A DNA stretch of 5,505 nt from Conexibacter sp. Its GTDB lineage: Bacteria; Actinomycetota; Thermoleophilia; Solirubrobacterales; Solirubrobacteraceae. Where the stretch lies: the NCBI GenBank assembly GCA_025964295.1, contig JAOPZD010000005.1, forward strand, positions 1 through 5,505, in the 5' to 3' direction. Positions 1-5,505 of this stretch are shown in pieces; the first letter of the stretch is position 1; the number at the start of each line of letters is the position of its first letter. Under the pieces are notes generated by a model. The model did not search any database. It saw nothing but the letters and a program-made list of their open reading frames with translations, and was not told the DNA's origin. Position numbers and translations under genes: made by a program.

Positions 1-755
1 TGGACAAGCGCCACCCGTGGAACAAGCAGACCCTGCCGCGGCCGCAGAAGCGCGATTTCAACGACAAGTACTCGTGGGTCGCTGCCCCGCGCATGTACGA
101 CAAGCGCAACGACATCTACGTTGCGACCGACACCGGTGGCGGCCCGTTCGCGCGCAACTGGTGCACGGCGAAGGCCGGGCTCGTCGACCTCGGGTACCTC
201 AAGGCGACCGGGCACAGCATCCAGATGGTGCTGCCCAAGAGCCTGAACATGCCGGAGATGGAGCTCGAGTGGAAGATCCCGCCGTGGTCCAACGCGATCG
301 AGCGTCAGCGGGCGCGCAGCTACCACCAGGCCTACTCGGCGCTCGTGGCGCTGCACAACCTGGAGCGGGCGCAGGCGGAGATCCGCGCCGGACGGACCAA
401 GAGCTGGAACGACTTCACCGTGCCGGAGAACGCCATCTCGGTCGGCTTCCACGAGGCGGCCCGCGGCGTGCTGTCGCATCACATGGTCATCCGTGAGGGC
501 AAGATCGCCAACTACCAGCCGTACCCGCCCACGCCGTGGTGCGGGAACCCGCGCGACACCTACGGGACGCCGGGCCCCTACGAGGACGCGGTGCAGAACA
601 CGCCGATCTTCGAGGAGAACGGGCCCGACGACTTCAAGGGCGTCGACATCATGCGGGCGGTGCACAGCTTCGACCCGTGCCTGCCGTGCGGCGTGCACAT
701 GTACGGCAAGGGCAAGGTGCGCAAGGTGGTGCACACGCCGACGGGGATGTGCTGA
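1..755 (+). CDS. hhyL: [NiFe]-hydrogenase large subunit, group 1h type, C-terminal part (5' end outside window)
   Basis: This is the catalytic subunit that splits H2 at a NiFe(CN)2CO centre. The frame is open from base 3, giving 250 visible residues, and ends at TGA 753-755. The N-terminal part with the first RxCGxC nickel-ligand motif lies upstream of the window. Visible hallmarks are the C-terminal ligand motif DPCLPCGVH at visible residues 224-232 (C226, C229, H232) and typical large-subunit segments such as ATDTGGGPFARNWC and GFHEAARGVLSHH, the latter an RGxLxH-type motif near the active site. An 18-residue tail follows the final His and is expected to be cut off during maturation. The DPCLPCGVHMY ending and the downstream gene set (NifU/Rieske-like, DUF5947, DUF6084, protease, HypAB) match the high-affinity group 1h class used by actinobacteria for trace H2 oxidation. 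Family membership is very secure. The 1h subgroup rests on motif recall and gene context. Confidence 0.94.
   Translation, partial: DKRHPWNKQTLPRPQKRDFNDKYSWVAAPRMYDKRNDIYVATDTGGGPFARNWCTAKAGLVDLGYLKATGHSIQMVLPKSLNMPEMELEWKIPPWSNAIERQRARSYHQAYSALVALHNLERAQAEIRAGRTKSWNDFTVPENAISVGFHEAARGVLSHHMVIREGKIANYQPYPPTPWCGNPRDTYGTPGPYEDAVQNTPIFEENGPDDFKGVDIMRAVHSFDPCLPCGVHMYGKGKVRKVVHTPTGMC
699..752 (+). other. C-terminal propeptide of the large subunit (maturation cleavage tail)
   Basis: The 18 codons after the last His of DPCLPCGVH (His codon 696-698) encode a basic tail beginning MYGKG and ending PTGMC. In [NiFe]-hydrogenase maturation the specific endopeptidase cuts just after this His (or Arg) once nickel is in place. 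The presence of a tail and of a protease gene about 3.2 kb downstream in the same operon is consistent. The cut site is inferred from the family. Confidence 0.8.
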
Positions 756-756
756 G

Positions 757-1416
757 GTGGCGACCGCCGCCACAGCGTCGGCCGAGGAGGCCCTGGTCGG
801 GCGTGTGGAAGAGCTGACCGCGCGCGTCGAGGCGCTGCCCGACCCCGACGTGCGCGAGCTGGCCGACGACCTGGCCGCGGCCGTCGTGCAGCTCTACGGC
901 GAGGGGCTCGAGCGCATCTTCGCGGCGCTGGAGCCGGAGGTGCGCGCGCGGCTGGCGCAGGACGGCGTCGTGGCCAGCCTCATGCTGATCCATGGCCTGT
1001 ACCCGATCGACATCGAGACGCGGGTGCGCGGGGCGCTGGACAGCGTCCGGCCGTACCTGGAGTCGCACGGGGGCAACGTCGAGCTGCTCGGCATCGCCGA
1101 CGGCGTCGCCCGGCTGCGGCTCCAGGGATCGTGCAGTGGATGCTCCGCGTCGCAGAGCACCTTGGAGCTGGCCATCGAGCGCGCGCTGCAGGAGACCGCC
1201 CCCGACCTGCTGGGCATCGACGTGGAGGGCGTGGTGGCGGCGCCGCCCCGGCGGCCGGAGCCGGAGGGCGACGTGGAGTGGGTGGAGCTGGAGGGTGTCG
1301 CGGAACTCGAGCGCGGCCGGATAATGCCTGCGCCGCTCCCACCCGGGGGGCTGATGATCGCCAACGTCGCCGGGACCCTGCTGGCCTACCACGACGCCTG
1401 TGCCGGCTGCGGATAG
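757..1416 (+). CDS. NifU-domain protein with truncated Rieske-like domain (ORF ends at premature TAG)
   Basis: Starting at GTG 757, one base after the hhyL stop, this frame gives 219 residues before TAG 1414-1416. A weak purine-rich stretch at 741-747 could serve as ribosome binding site. Residues 1-87 are mostly helical. Residues about 88-160 form a NifU C-terminal-type (Nfu) domain, with ESHGGNVELL followed by LQGSCSGCSAS. C126 and C129 of that CxxC are the usual Fe-S binding pair. After a Pro/Glu-rich linker, residues about 173 onward start a small beta domain (GTLLAYHDACAGCG; H212, C215, C218) that looks like a Rieske fold cut off just after its first cysteine pair. By position and domains it may correspond to HhyE, the Fe-S protein encoded after the group 1h structural genes and proposed to relay electrons. 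I am not certain enough to assign the symbol. The intact gene would run to 1584 with 275 codons. As it stands the product keeps the NifU domain but loses half of the Rieske-like site. Confidence 0.8.
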   Translation: MATAATASAEEALVGRVEELTARVEALPDPDVRELADDLAAAVVQLYGEGLERIFAALEPEVRARLAQDGVVASLMLIHGLYPIDIETRVRGALDSVRPYLESHGGNVELLGIADGVARLRLQGSCSGCSASQSTLELAIERALQETAPDLLGIDVEGVVAAPPRRPEPEGDVEWVELEGVAELERGRIMPAPLPPGGLMIANVAGTLLAYHDACAGCG

Positions 1417-1584
1417 CCGCTGACCGGCGGGGCGCTGCTGGGCGGGATGCTCACGTGCGGGGGCTGTGCGCTGCAGTTCGACCTGCCGCGGGCCGGGCGC
1501 TGCCTGAGCGACGACGGACTGCAGCTGCGCCCGGTGCCGCTGCTGCGCAACGGCGGCCCCGTCCGGGTCGCGCGGACGCGATGA
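1414..1584 (+). pseudogene. Detached 3' part of the NifU/Rieske-like gene, in frame beyond the TAG
   Basis: The same frame as the gene starting at 757 continues without another stop from 1417 to TGA 1582-1584. It encodes PLTGGALLGG, then TCGGCALQFDLPRAGR and a final segment LRPVPLLRNGG. This is the natural second half of a Rieske-type domain: CxxCGxPL, then CxxC and FDLxxGR. It supplies C234 and C237, counting TAG as codon 220. Its stop overlaps the next start as ATGA (1581-1584), the junction type used elsewhere in the operon, so 1584 is almost surely the ancestral end of the gene. An in-frame ATG at 1447 could in principle restart translation to give a 45-residue peptide, but a GC-rich Shine-Dalgarno-like stretch directly abuts it with no proper spacing. 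The fragment is therefore either a relic of a fresh nonsense mutation or part of a whole gene hidden by a base-call error. Confidence 0.8.
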
Positions 1585-2228
1585 CCGCGCCCGGGGGATC
1601 TCCGCCGGGCCTGCGACGCATGGCCGCCTGGGCGGCCGCCAAGCCGCCGGCGGCGGCGACGACGCCCACGCGTGCCGCGTCGCGGGCGACCTGCGAGCTG
1701 TGCCCGATCGGCATCGGCGAGGACCACCGCCACCTCCTGCACCTCGTCGAGCGCCGGATCGTCTGCGTCTGCGAGACGTGCTGGTCGATGCGCTCCGGCG
1801 ACCCGGAGTTCCGGCCGCCCGGCGGCCGGACCATCCTGCTGGAGGACTTCGTCATGCCCCACGAGATCTGGTCGGCGTTCCAGATCCCGATCGGCCTGGC
1901 CTTCCTGCTGCGCAGCACGGTGACCGAGAGCGTCGTCGCGCTGTACCCCAGCCCCGCCGGCGCGACGGAGTCCGAGCTCGAGCTCGACGCCTGGGACGGG
2001 CTGTGCGCGGCGAACCCGATCCTCGACCGGCTCGAGCCCGACGCCGAGGCGCTGGTCGTCGACCGCACCGCGGCCCAGCACCGCTACGCGATCCTGCCGA
2101 TCGACAAGTGCTATGCCCTGGTCGGCCTGATCAAGTCGCGCTGGCAGGGCATCACCGGCGGCCCCGCGGTCGACGCGGCGATCGCCGAGTTCTTCGAGGG
2201 CCTGCGCACCCGGGAGCTCGCGCGGTGA
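1581..2228 (+). CDS. DUF5947-type protein with Cys/His cluster, hydrogenase-associated
   Basis: The product has 215 residues and its function is unknown. The start at ATG 1581 is chosen because it overlaps the preceding frame's TGA as ATGA. A later in-frame ATG at 1620 (codon 14) is possible but lacks a good ribosome site. Residues 1-36 are an Ala/Pro/Arg-rich, probably disordered leader without a clear signal peptide. A compact putative metal site follows: C38-x2-C41, then H49, H51 and H54 (GEDHRHLLHL), then C62-x-C64-x2-C67. Next come conserved-looking stretches FQIPIGLAFLLRS and LPIDKCYALVGLIK (C177). I recognise the pattern of DUF5947, a family found beside group 1h hydrogenase genes in actinobacteria. 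A zinc or Fe-S role in enzyme assembly or electron transfer is inference from the cysteines and the neighbours. Translation is probably coupled to the gene upstream, so the TAG at 1414 could reduce its expression. Confidence 0.82.
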   Translation: MTAPGGSPPGLRRMAAWAAAKPPAAATTPTRAASRATCELCPIGIGEDHRHLLHLVERRIVCVCETCWSMRSGDPEFRPPGGRTILLEDFVMPHEIWSAFQIPIGLAFLLRSTVTESVVALYPSPAGATESELELDAWDGLCAANPILDRLEPDAEALVVDRTAAQHRYAILPIDKCYALVGLIKSRWQGITGGPAVDAAIAEFFEGLRTRELAR

Positions 2229-2878
2229 GCGTCACGACGCCGACCGACGAGACGGGCGTCGAGCCGGCCTTCTCGGTGCTCGACGTCGAGCCGGTGGCCA
2301 ACTCGGCGACGCCGGCGCTGCGCTTCCACCTCCACGTCGACGACCCGCTCGGCCGCGCGATCCACACGATCGCGCTGTCGACCCAGATCCAGATCGACCC
2401 CGCGCGCCGCGCCTACGACGCCGAGACGCGCGAGCGGCTCGTCGAGCTCTTCGGCGCGCCCGAGCGCTGGGCCGCGACGACCCAGGTCTTCCGCTGGGCG
2501 CACGTCGACACGCTCGTCAAGGGCTTCACCGGCGCGACGTCGTTCGCCATCGACGTGCCGTGCACCTACGACCTCGAGGTCGCCGCGAGCAAGTACTTCT
2601 ACTCGCTGCCCGACGGCGAGGTCCCGCTCACCTTCCTGTTCAACGGCATGGTCCTGTACGCGGGCGAGCACGACCGCCTGCAGGTCGCCCAGGTGCCGTG
2701 GAGCTGCACCGCGAAGTGGCGGATGCCGGTGCAGGCCTGGCGGCGCGTGATGGCCGCCTACTACCCGGGCGGCGGCTGGGTGCGCCTGGAGGCCGAGACG
2801 CTCGACGCGCTGGGGCGGCGCAAGGCCCAGCGCGGCGACCACAGCTTCGACGCGACGGTCCGGGGGCTGCTGGGATGA
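2225..2878 (+). CDS. DUF6084-type protein, hydrogenase-associated, function unknown
   Basis: The product has 217 residues. The start is GTG 2225, overlapping the previous stop as GTGA. A GGGAG at 2212-2216 lies 8 bases upstream and supports this start. After an 18-residue acidic leader comes what looks like a largely beta-strand protein: FSVLDVEPV, LRFHLHVDD, then IHTIALSTQIQID and FAIDVPCTYDLEV. YFYSLPDGEVPLTFLFNG follows, and the C-terminal part is richer in aromatics (VPWSCTAKWRMP, YYPGGGWVRL). Only two cysteines stand out (C113, C161), and no catalytic motif or membrane segment is visible. The sequence resembles the DUF6084 family that accompanies group 1h hydrogenases. An assembly or structural partner of the enzyme is a guess from context only. 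Confidence 0.8.
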   Translation: MSVTTPTDETGVEPAFSVLDVEPVANSATPALRFHLHVDDPLGRAIHTIALSTQIQIDPARRAYDAETRERLVELFGAPERWAATTQVFRWAHVDTLVKGFTGATSFAIDVPCTYDLEVAASKYFYSLPDGEVPLTFLFNGMVLYAGEHDRLQVAQVPWSCTAKWRMPVQAWRRVMAAYYPGGGWVRLEAETLDALGRRKAQRGDHSFDATVRGLLG

Positions 2879-3981
2879 GCGCCGACCAGCTCGACGAGCT
2901 CGTCGACACGCTGCTGTGGGAGGGCCACCAGCTCTACCCCTACACGCCGAGCGCCACGAAGAACGCGACGCCGACGCCGTTCGGCATCGTCTACCCGCGC
3001 GCGCACGCCGAGGGCAGCCCGCACCGCTTCGCGCGCCTGAAGCTGCAGTGCGTCGCCACCGGGACCGAGGAGTTCTCGGCCACCGTGCACTTCCTCGAGT
3101 CCGGGCAGGCCCGCCGGGTCGCGGTCACGCCGGGGGCCGCGGAGACGTTCTTGTACGGGTCGGTCAGCGGGCGGGTGGCGCTGGGCGTCGAGGACTTCGC
3201 CGGCGTCAAGCGCGTCACCGTCGACGTGCACAACACCACCGACGTGCCGGCCGGCCTGACGCGGGGCGAGGCGCTGGGCTTCTCGCTGCTGTCGACCCAC
3301 GTGGTCGTGCGCTGCGGCGCCGGCGGGCGCTTCGCCTCGCCGGTCGCCCCGCCCGAGGACCTCGCCACCGCCGTCATGACCTGCGCGAACGTCAACACGC
3401 ATCCGGTGCTGGCCAGCGCCGCCGACGACGCGATCCTCGGCGCGGCGATCTTCCTGCCCGACCACCCCGAGATCGCGCCCGAGAGCCGCGGCTCGCTGTT
3501 CGACTCGACCGAGATCGAGGAGGCGCTGCTGCTGCACGTGCTGGCGCTCAGCGACGCCGAGCGCCAGGAGCTCGCGACGGCCGATCCCGCGGTCCGGGCG
3601 ATGATCGAGCGCGCGATCAGCGCGACGCCGGCCGACATCATCGCCCTGCACGGGCGGGTGACCGTGAGCGACCCGGCGCCCGTGGTCCCGGCGGCCCCCG
3701 CCGGCGACGGCGCGGAGCTCCGGGGCGAGGAGGCGATCGTCGTCGACGGCCGCACGTTCCGGCGCGGCGGCCACGTCGTGCTGCGCCCGGAGCGCAACCG
3801 CAACGCGCAGGACCACCTGCTCGAGGGCCGCAGCGCGACGATCGAGCGCATCTACATCGACTACGCGGACGCCGTGCACCTCTGCGTGACGGTCGACGAC
3901 GACCCCGGCCAGGACCTCATGCGCGACATCGGCCGGTACTTGTACTTCAAGCCCGACGAGGTGGAGGAGACCACGGCATGA
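2875..3981 (+). CDS. Uncharacterised two-domain protein of the group 1h hydrogenase operon
   Basis: The product has 368 residues. It starts at ATG 2875, overlapping the previous stop as ATGA, with a G-run at 2862-2866 eight bases upstream. I recognise no named enzyme family. The N-terminal part (about 1-240) opens with DELVDTLLWEGHQLYPYTPS and contains beta-rich stretches such as RVTVDVHNTTDVPAG and LLSTHVVVRCG. It then has TCANVNTHPVLAS and ILGAAIFLPDHPEIAPESRG, followed by an acidic helical segment (STEIEEALLLHVLALSDAER). A Pro/Ala linker sits at about 266-283. The C-terminal part (about 285-368) starts VVDGRTFRRGGHVVLRP and ends LYFKPDEVE, and has the look of a small SH3-like beta barrel. 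Cysteines are few and unpaired, so a cluster site is unlikely. The overlap junctions on both sides tie it to the hydrogenase operon, so a dedicated assembly or partner role is plausible. No function can be assigned. Confidence 0.85.
   Translation: MSADQLDELVDTLLWEGHQLYPYTPSATKNATPTPFGIVYPRAHAEGSPHRFARLKLQCVATGTEEFSATVHFLESGQARRVAVTPGAAETFLYGSVSGRVALGVEDFAGVKRVTVDVHNTTDVPAGLTRGEALGFSLLSTHVVVRCGAGGRFASPVAPPEDLATAVMTCANVNTHPVLASAADDAILGAAIFLPDHPEIAPESRGSLFDSTEIEEALLLHVLALSDAERQELATADPAVRAMIERAISATPADIIALHGRVTVSDPAPVVPAAPAGDGAELRGEEAIVVDGRTFRRGGHVVLRPERNRNAQDHLLEGRSATIERIYIDYADAVHLCVTVDDDPGQDLMRDIGRYLYFKPDEVEETTA
3963..3970 (+). promoter_or_regulatory. Strong ribosome binding site for the maturation protease gene
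   Basis: A GGAGGAGA purine run ends 7 bases before ATG 3978 and lies inside the 3' end of the preceding gene. It fixes the start of the protease and suggests independent ribosome loading in addition to coupling through the ATGA overlap. Confidence 0.6.
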
Positions 3982-4490
3982 CGCGGCAGCTGCAGAAGCA
4001 GATCCTCGTGGCCGGCGTGGGCAACGCCTGGCTGCAGGACGACGCGTTCGGCGGCGAGTGCGCCCGCCGGCTGGAGGCGCGCGGCGTCCCCGACGGCGTG
4101 ACCGTCATGGAGTTCGGGACCGGCGGCCTGGATCTCGCCTACGAGATCATGCGCGGCTACGACGCGCTCGTGCTCCTCGACGCCAGCCGCCAGGGCGGCG
4201 AGCCGGGCACGTTGTACGTGTTGGAGCCCGCCATGGAGGAGCTGGCGGGCCCGATCGAGGACGGCGACGTCATCAACCCGCACGGCATGGACCCCCAGAC
4301 GGTCCTGCGCTTCGTCGGCGCGATCGGCGGGTTCTCGGGCCGCGTCGTCGTGATCGGCTGCGAGCCGGGGGAGGTCGACGACGTCGGCCTCGGCCTGACG
4401 CCCGCCGTCGAGGGCGCGATCGAGCGGGCGCTGGAGCTCGTGACCGAGACGCTCGGCGAGCTGCGCACCGACGCGGCCTACCAACGCTGA
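3978..4490 (+). CDS. hupD: [NiFe]-hydrogenase maturation endopeptidase (HupD/HyaD/HybD type)
   Basis: The product has 170 residues, a normal length for this family (HybD/HycI type, MEROPS A31). It removes the C-terminal tail of the large subunit after nickel insertion. The signature is ILVAGVGNAWLQDDAFGG at residues 9-26. Three nickel-sensing carboxylate/His positions are visible: D22 (Glu in E. coli HybD), D68 in ALVLLDAS, and H102 in NPHGMDP. The GTGG at 47-50 is also typical. The natural substrate is presumably the tail at 699-752 in the same operon. The start ATG 3978 overlaps the previous TGA as ATGA and has a strong ribosome site. The exact symbol (hupD, hyaD or an hhy-specific name) is a matter of convention. 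Confidence 0.92.
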   Translation: MTRQLQKQILVAGVGNAWLQDDAFGGECARRLEARGVPDGVTVMEFGTGGLDLAYEIMRGYDALVLLDASRQGGEPGTLYVLEPAMEELAGPIEDGDVINPHGMDPQTVLRFVGAIGGFSGRVVVIGCEPGEVDDVGLGLTPAVEGAIERALELVTETLGELRTDAAYQR

Positions 4491-4843
4491 TGCACGAGTT
4501 CTCGATCGCCTCGGCGGTGGTGGCGACGGCGGTCAAGCACGCCGGCGGACGCCGGGTGACGGTCGTCCGCGTCCGGCTGGGCGCGCTGCGCCAGGTCGTG
4601 CCGGACGCCCTGGAGTTCGCCTTCGGGATCGTGTCGCGGGAGACCCTCTGCGAGAACGCGCGGCTGGAGTCCGAATGCGTCGGGCTGCGCGTGGCGTGCG
4701 CGCCGTGCGCGCGGACGTGGGCCCTGGAGCGCCCGCCGTTTCGCTGCCCCGGCTGCGGTGACGGCGCGGTCACGGTCGTCAGCGGCGAGGAGCTCGAGGT
4801 CGAGTCCATCGAGGTGGAGGAGGAGGCGGCATGCACCGCGTGA
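4490..4843 (+). CDS. hypA: Hydrogenase nickel-insertion protein HypA
   Basis: The product has 117 residues, the usual HypA length. The start ATG 4490 shares one base with the preceding TGA. The mature-end motif MHEFS provides the nickel ligand His2 next to Glu3. The zinc site is C70-x2-C73 and C86-x2-C89 (CAPC and CPGC). The N-terminal domain has the typical RVRLGALRQVVPDALEFAF pattern. HypA receives nickel with HypB and hands it to the large-subunit precursor. The last 20 or so residues are very acidic (ELEVESIEVEEE), partly because they overlap the purine-rich ribosome site of hypB. No Shine-Dalgarno sequence is evident before hypA itself, so its translation probably depends on coupling to the protease gene. 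Confidence 0.95.
   Translation: MHEFSIASAVVATAVKHAGGRRVTVVRVRLGALRQVVPDALEFAFGIVSRETLCENARLESECVGLRVACAPCARTWALERPPFRCPGCGDGAVTVVSGEELEVESIEVEEEAACTA
4816..4826 (+). promoter_or_regulatory. Strong ribosome binding site for hypB inside hypA
   Basis: An 11-base GGA/GG purine run sits 4 bases before ATG 4831, with internal GGAGG copies at 5-10 bases spacing. It favours ATG 4831 over the in-frame GTG 4840, which would overlap the hypA stop as GTGA but is too far from the run. Confidence 0.6.
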
Positions 4844-5505
4844 AGGTCCGCGTCGTCGAGGACGCGCTGGACGCCAACAACACGATCGCGCGGGCCAACC
4901 GCGCGGACTTCGACCGCGCCGGCGTGGCGGTCGTCAACCTGATGAGCGCGCCGGGCGCGGGCAAGACCACGCTGCTGGAGCGCGTGCTGGGCGACGGCGC
5001 GACGATCGGCGGCGGGGGCGTGCGCGTCGGCGTCCTGGAGGGCGACGTGCAGGGCAGCCTGGACGCCGACCGCCTCGCGCACCTCCACGTGCCCGTCGTC
5101 CAGCTCGACACCGGCAGCGGCTTCGGCGGCGAGTGCCACCTCGACGCCAACATGGTGCGCTCGGCGCTGCCGGCGCTGGCGCTCGACGACCTCGACCTGC
5201 TGATCGTCGAGAACGTCGGCAACCTCGTCTGCCCGGCGGAGTTCCAGATCGGCGAGGACGCGCGCATCATGGTGTCCTCGGTCGCCGAGGGCGAGGACAA
5301 GCCGCTCAAGTACCCCTTGATGTTCCGGACCTGCGAGCTGGTCATCGTCAACAAGGTCGACCTGCTGCCCCACGTCGACTTCGACCTCGACAAGTTCCTG
5401 TACCACCTGGACGCCGTCCATCCCGGCGTCGCGCACCTGGAGGTCAGCGCCCGCACGGGCGCCGGCGTCGGCGCGCTGCGCGACTGGCTGGCGGGCGTCC
5501 CCGAC
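4831..5505 (+). CDS. hypB: Hydrogenase nickel-incorporation GTPase HypB (3' end outside window)
   Basis: 225 codons are visible from ATG 4831 and no stop is reached. The family length suggests only a few residues are missing. HypB is a SIMIBI-class GTPase that drives nickel transfer with HypA. Visible motifs are the P-loop SAPGAGKTT (G42-T47), EGDVQGSLDADR (69-81), the metal-binding GECHLDA with C102 and H103, ENVGNLVCPAEF with C134, SVAEGEDKPLKYP, the guanine-specificity motif NKVD (174-177), and EVSARTGAG (204-212). The protein begins directly with MHRVKV and lacks both the N-terminal CxxCGC high-affinity nickel site of E. coli HypB and the His-rich stretch seen in rhizobial forms. It overlaps hypA by 13 bases. 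It is a minimal HypB, so nickel binding would rest on the GTPase-domain Cys/His/Cys site. Confidence 0.96.
   Translation, partial: MHRVKVRVVEDALDANNTIARANRADFDRAGVAVVNLMSAPGAGKTTLLERVLGDGATIGGGGVRVGVLEGDVQGSLDADRLAHLHVPVVQLDTGSGFGGECHLDANMVRSALPALALDDLDLLIVENVGNLVCPAEFQIGEDARIMVSSVAEGEDKPLKYPLMFRTCELVIVNKVDLLPHVDFDLDKFLYHLDAVHPGVAHLEVSARTGAGVGALRDWLAGVPD

Follow-up and report, generated by a model that had tools for sequence, protein, structure and literature searches.

HhyE of M. smegmatis (MSMEG_2718) has been proposed to serve Hhy, a group 1h [NiFe]-hydrogenase, as an iron-sulfur partner (PMC6883350). HhyE contains a NifU-like domain with a CxxC motif and two more CxxC motifs in its C-terminal part, its gene is located downstream of the hydrogenase structural genes, and M. 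smegmatis requires the protein for H2 oxidation (PMC6883350). The same paper mentions truncated HucE and HhyE proteins without the C-terminal domains in a subset of species (PMC6883350). Proteins of approximately 176 to 204 residues which are NifU-like only are encoded between the hydrogenase large subunit and a DUF5947 protein in C. necator pHG1, in Kitasatospora and in two genomes of the order Solirubrobacterales analysed here (loci L035 and L036). The NifU family protein H16_RS31850 of C. necator H16 pHG1 (192 residues) and the hypothetical protein OG286_RS02695 of Kitasatospora (176 residues) have no Rieske-fold domain. H16_RS31850 contains a single cysteine and thus has no NifU CxxC motif.

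A hydrogenase operon with a hhyE-like gene

The window, i.e. the whole stretch of 5,505 nucleotides analysed here, contains eight genes of one operon, all on the plus strand; the first and the last of them are incomplete. The first encodes the C-terminal part of a [NiFe]-hydrogenase large subunit (hhyL-like; positions 3..755; PF00374, E 3e-36), of which 250 C-terminal residues are present and which is 67-68% identical to its counterparts in Kitasatospora and C. necator pHG1. It is followed by a NifU-type gene, whose reading frame spans positions 757-1584. Further downstream are the genes for a DUF5947 protein (1581..2228; PF19372, E 2e-56), a DUF6084 protein (2225..2878; PF19562, E 3e-74), a protein for which neither Pfam nor NCBIfam gave a match at E 0.001 (2875..3981), a hydrogenase maturation protease (3978..4490; PF01750, TIGR00072), HypA (4490..4843; PF01155) and HypB (4831..5505; TIGR00073, E 3e-70), the last of which extends past the window end.

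The annotated order in C. necator pHG1 and on the Kitasatospora plasmid (large subunit, NifU-like or unnamed short gene, DUF5947, DUF6084, unnamed protein, protease) is the order of the window, and the unnamed protein of both occupies the position matching 2875..3981. H16_RS31850 and OG286_RS02695 have the same gene position between large subunit and DUF5947 as the NifU-type gene, and they align with its product over the NifU-like part. With HhyE of M. smegmatis the frame shares the NifU-like CxxC motif (C126xxC129) and the position downstream of the large subunit. Both C-terminal CxxC motifs are present in the frame as well, but here a stop codon lies between them, and the second would be part of the product only if this stop is an error or is read through. 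Judging from the sequence, the NifU-type gene looks like a hhyE-like gene, encoding a putative iron-sulfur partner of a group 1h-type [NiFe]-hydrogenase, and from this partner together with the operon order we infer that the hydrogenase of the window probably belongs to group 1h.

An in-frame TAG in the hhyE-like gene

The frame starts with GTG at position 757, and its codon 220 is TAG (1414..1416, plus strand). In the first-pass annotation this stop was placed between C215-x2-C218 and C234-x2-C237, and both the coordinates and the cysteine positions (126, 129, 215, 218, 234, 237 and 249) agree with it. The 219 codons before the stop (757..1413) comprise the NifU domain at residues 91-151 (PF01106, E 2e-22, 79 bits), which contains C126xxC129, and in addition C215 and C218. 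After the stop, a tail of 55 codons (1417..1581; PLTGGALLGG...TCGGCALQFDL), containing C234xxC237 and no signs of decay, leads to the normal terminator TGA (1582..1584). This TGA overlaps the ATG of the DUF5947 gene at 1581 in the sequence ATGA.

The tail had been proposed to be the second half of the same domain. Indeed, 53 of its 55 residues are identical to residues 221-275 of P0001, which likewise has 275 residues, and its GC3 is 0.95 in frame, whereas the two alternative frames have 0.81 and 0.59. Since the match to P0001 and the codon bias are both kept, the continuation cannot be attributed to chance, and the lack of decay implies that the stop is either very recent or not real. It was also correctly noted before that all other visible gene stops are TGA; there are seven, including the own TGA of the hhyE frame. 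On the plus strand TAG occurs once in 5,505 bases.

Several causes were considered and rejected. A change of the genetic code does not fit, since the other genes of the window are open under table 11, TGA terminates all six whose end is visible, and the hhyE gene of a relative (L034) ends with TAG. A pair of frameshifts is not needed, as the tail continues in frame with the part before the stop. A viral origin was also rejected: 21 stretches of viral contigs matched a peptide pattern, and none of them encodes a relative. Finally, a restart at the ATG at 1447 within the tail would give a product of approximately 45 residues with one CxxC motif, which we judged unlikely.

Homologues with the C-terminal domain read on at codon 220

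The protein search gave 4032 matches, of which 120 were listed; one of these is the truncated protein of the window itself (P0008), and the following counts refer to the other 119. The closest among the matches listed is P0001, a full-length protein of 275 residues from a contig of 13,637 bases, which is 97% identical and has alanine at position 220. Named relatives include Conexibacter, Baekduia and MAGs of Solirubrobacterales, which suggests a Solirubrobacterales-like actinobacterium as the host. Residue 220 is occupied by 11 types of amino acids in the 119 listed homologues (A in 55, G in 36, E in 10, R in 8, S in 3, L in 2, and V, K, Q, D and N in one each). Thus, no particular residue seems to be demanded at this position. 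C215 and C218 are present in 119 of 119, C234 in 118 of them and C237 in 117; the others have gaps at these positions.

None of the 119 listed homologues ends at position 220, which was the result of the homologue alignment suggested beforehand as a check. Three of them end early, at the aligned positions 225 (P0118, listed with no contig), 236 (P0089, labelled as partial) and 260 (P0103), and were taken for fragments. The truncated form is represented among the matches listed by P0008 only, with one member on one contig.

At the genome level 37 relative loci were collected. Three of them (L001, L002 and L005) repeat L009, L010 and L008, leaving 34; L006, from a MAG of Pseudonocardiales, encodes a NifU-only protein, and L007 an isolated Rieske-like protein that is not an orthologue. 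Codon by codon, 32 loci were read. The C-terminal domain is present in 30 and absent from L035 and L036. All 30 domain-bearing orthologues have a sense codon at position 220, in nine cases GCG, and read on. The hhyE terminator is TGA in 30 of the 32 loci, TAG in L034 and TAA in L037. In an order-wide search covering 232 genomes, 81 had a match at E 0.001, and the listed rows were without internal stop except one. This exception (G217:C189:2487-2804, same order) is a weak NifU-like match of 34% with two internal TAG codons. A sample of 396 genomes from the phylum, which shares three matching genomes with the order-wide search, gave 31 matching genomes at E 1e-30, and none of the 32 rows contained an internal stop.

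As a side observation, in 12 of the 119 listed homologues the NifU and DUF5947 domains are both present in one protein according to Pfam (P0062, P0067, P0073, P0081, P0084, P0096, P0098, P0102, P0110, P0112, P0119 and P0120). This suggests a joint action of the two products.

Fold and putative ligands of the C-terminal domain

The AlphaFold2 model of P0001, calculated with 63 homologues, has a mean pLDDT of 89 and a pTM of 0.51, which makes the placement of the domains relative to each other uncertain. For the C-terminal domain of P0001 the best Foldseek matches were Rieske ferredoxins (2qpz, with E 7e-7 and a TM-score on target of 0.85; the fold is also shared with 4p1c and 1fqt). In the profile search, NifU matches were strong, and there were also weak ones to Rieske ferredoxins (E 3e-4 and above; positions 173-242). 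The classical Rieske ligand pattern is CxH...CxxH. The putative ligand pattern in the frame of the window, CxxC-x15-CxxC, differs from that of the Rieske ferredoxins. Model and profile search thus point to a domain with a Rieske fold and a likely all-cysteine (Cys4) ligand set. The gene had been viewed as a NifU/Rieske-like hydrogenase partner with a Cys4 site; NifU and Cys4 can be retained, and the domain is better described as a Rieske-ferredoxin fold with Cys4 ligands. According to the model, a product ending at the stop lacks two of the four cysteines as well as all strands beginning with residue 226. Thus, half of the metal site would be lost if the stop is real, as was anticipated in the first-pass annotation.

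A possible private nonsense allele or error in the sequence

We regard the TAG as an ordinary premature stop in a known kind of gene and not as evidence for new biology. A fresh mutation or a base error had been considered likely and readthrough the least likely, and our evaluation gives the same ranking. The TAG has about an even chance of being a nonsense allele that is recent and private, in an otherwise ordinary hhyE. If it is real and ends translation, a protein of 219 residues would be produced, which would consist of the NifU domain and an incomplete Rieske-fold domain with two of the four cysteine ligands. Such an incomplete domain would not bind metal. Further, the start of the DUF5947 gene, which overlaps the normal stop, would be separated from the TAG by 164 untranslated nt. 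In this case coupled translation may be lost and DUF5947 translation would probably drop. Thus, the view that the rest of the operon stays intact applies to the other genes as such, which are unbroken, but not to the expected translation of DUF5947.

A real allele is in line with the fact that P0001 reads on with alanine and that all domain-bearing orthologues are open. On the other hand, the unrelaxed tail, with 53 of 55 residues as in P0001, speaks against it, and so does the codon itself. It was proposed earlier that one base change would restore a sense codon. Relative to P0001, the nearest relative, the change is not a single step, since no alanine codon can be reached from TAG with fewer than two base changes. 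The same two observations favour the alternative that the hhyE of the strain is normal and the TAG is a consensus or assembly error, due to a miscalled base or to the joining of two strains in a short contig. We give this possibility somewhat less than an even chance. The longest contig listed for P0008 has 5505 bases, so that the window probably represents a complete contig, and no other match listed has the truncated form. Moreover, the bases around the stop are atypical: the trinucleotide ATA occurs only twice on the plus strand, both times in hhyE and within CGGATA (1318-1323 and 1410-1415, 92 bases apart), and the stop is part of CGGATAG. Against an error, however, the other genes of the window show neither a frameshift nor a further stop, which argues that the contig is not generally error-ridden.

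The codon usage near the stop is also relevant to this question. Codons ending with A or T make up 7 of 40 in codons 180-219, as compared to 10 of the remaining 234 codons of the gene; six GC-rich relatives have 9 of 221. This excess concerns third positions in a conserved protein and thus resembles natural drift more than random error. The cluster was noticed post hoc, and in the same bin of 30 orthologues the proportion is 76 of 1163 with a maximum of 0.175 in one of them, which equals the value of the window; it therefore lends weak support to a real allele. For the whole hhyE gene the count of such codons is 17 of 274, as compared to 25 of 1554 in the rest of the window, but a slightly lower GC3 of hhyE than of the preceding gene is common in relatives, too (8 of 11 loci).

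A real nonsense allele would mean that half of the metal site has been lost naturally from a protein which M. smegmatis needs for H2 oxidation (PMC6883350). It would then be a natural test of whether the Rieske-fold domain or just the NifU part is needed.

NifU-only forms in hydrogenase operons

The question is worth asking beyond this single contig, because NifU-only relatives are present in hydrogenase operons. The loci of this kind are L035, L036, L038:6771-7349 (C. necator), L039:6759-7289 and, as the fifth example, L006. The proteins of L035 (genome G075) and L036 (genome G073) have approximately 204 and 200 residues, respectively, and end before the domain, with the large subunit upstream and an open DUF5947 gene downstream. 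Thus, loss of the domain alone is no proof of a dead system, and truncation might be tolerated. The NifU-only forms question a universal role of the C-terminal domain as an electron relay.

It may be asked whether the Rieske-fold domain has become superfluous in this lineage, with the 219-residue protein functioning as a NifU-only HhyE. The occurrence of short proteins at the same operon place in C. necator pHG1, Kitasatospora, L035 and L036, the end before the domain in L006 and the truncated HucE and HhyE proteins reported in PMC6883350 would be compatible with this. However, the natural short forms stop before the domain and not inside the metal site, the domain remnant of the window is undecayed, and P0001, the relative with 97% identity, retains the domain. 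In addition, the genomes G075 and G073 contain a second match covering the C-terminal part. Altogether, we consider a functional short form very unlikely.

Possible decoding of the UAG

It is tempting to speculate that a leaky UAG would give a short, NifU-only HhyE and a long one with the Rieske-fold domain, so that a single gene would supply both forms of the protein that occur naturally in different species, but we attach very little probability to this idea. The same low probability applies to programmed UAG decoding in general, be it by readthrough, by pyrrolysine or by selenocysteine with an altered tRNA-Sec, which would yield short and long forms. In favour of such decoding, the frame is open and conserved past the TAG. 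However, none of the 30 domain-bearing orthologues has a stop at position 220, this residue is variable and never cysteine among the 119 homologues listed, and the hhyE of the relative L034 terminates with TAG.

The decoding machinery was surveyed in 232 genomes of the order, and these surveys for PylS, SelB and tRNA-Sec are evidence from the order and not from the source organism. PylS was over the cut-off in none of the 232 genomes, with weak matches in 205; of 14 control genomes 13 gave matches, one of them over the cut-off. SelB was over the cut-off in 76 of the 232 genomes, suggesting that selenocysteine is probably used in the order, and decoding of UAG as selenocysteine is reported for some species (PMC10778597). 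But the tRNA-Sec genes at the best 30 loci have the anticodon tca, which reads UGA (ARAGORN); matches over the cut-off were found in 164 of the 232 genomes. When the literature was searched for readthrough of UAG in Actinobacteria, the result was a paper on frameshift prediction, which has no bearing on the question as judged by its abstract.

A stimulatory RNA element was also considered and rejected. There is no Rfam match within the window, and RNA folding near the stop is unremarkable when compared to shuffled sequences, with z-scores of +2.2 (worse than shuffled) for 1417-1500, -0.6 for 1381-1470 and +1.5 for 1330-1413. In the SelB survey, a profile match below the cut-off (G026:C32:852-2006) was observed to contain one internal TAG.
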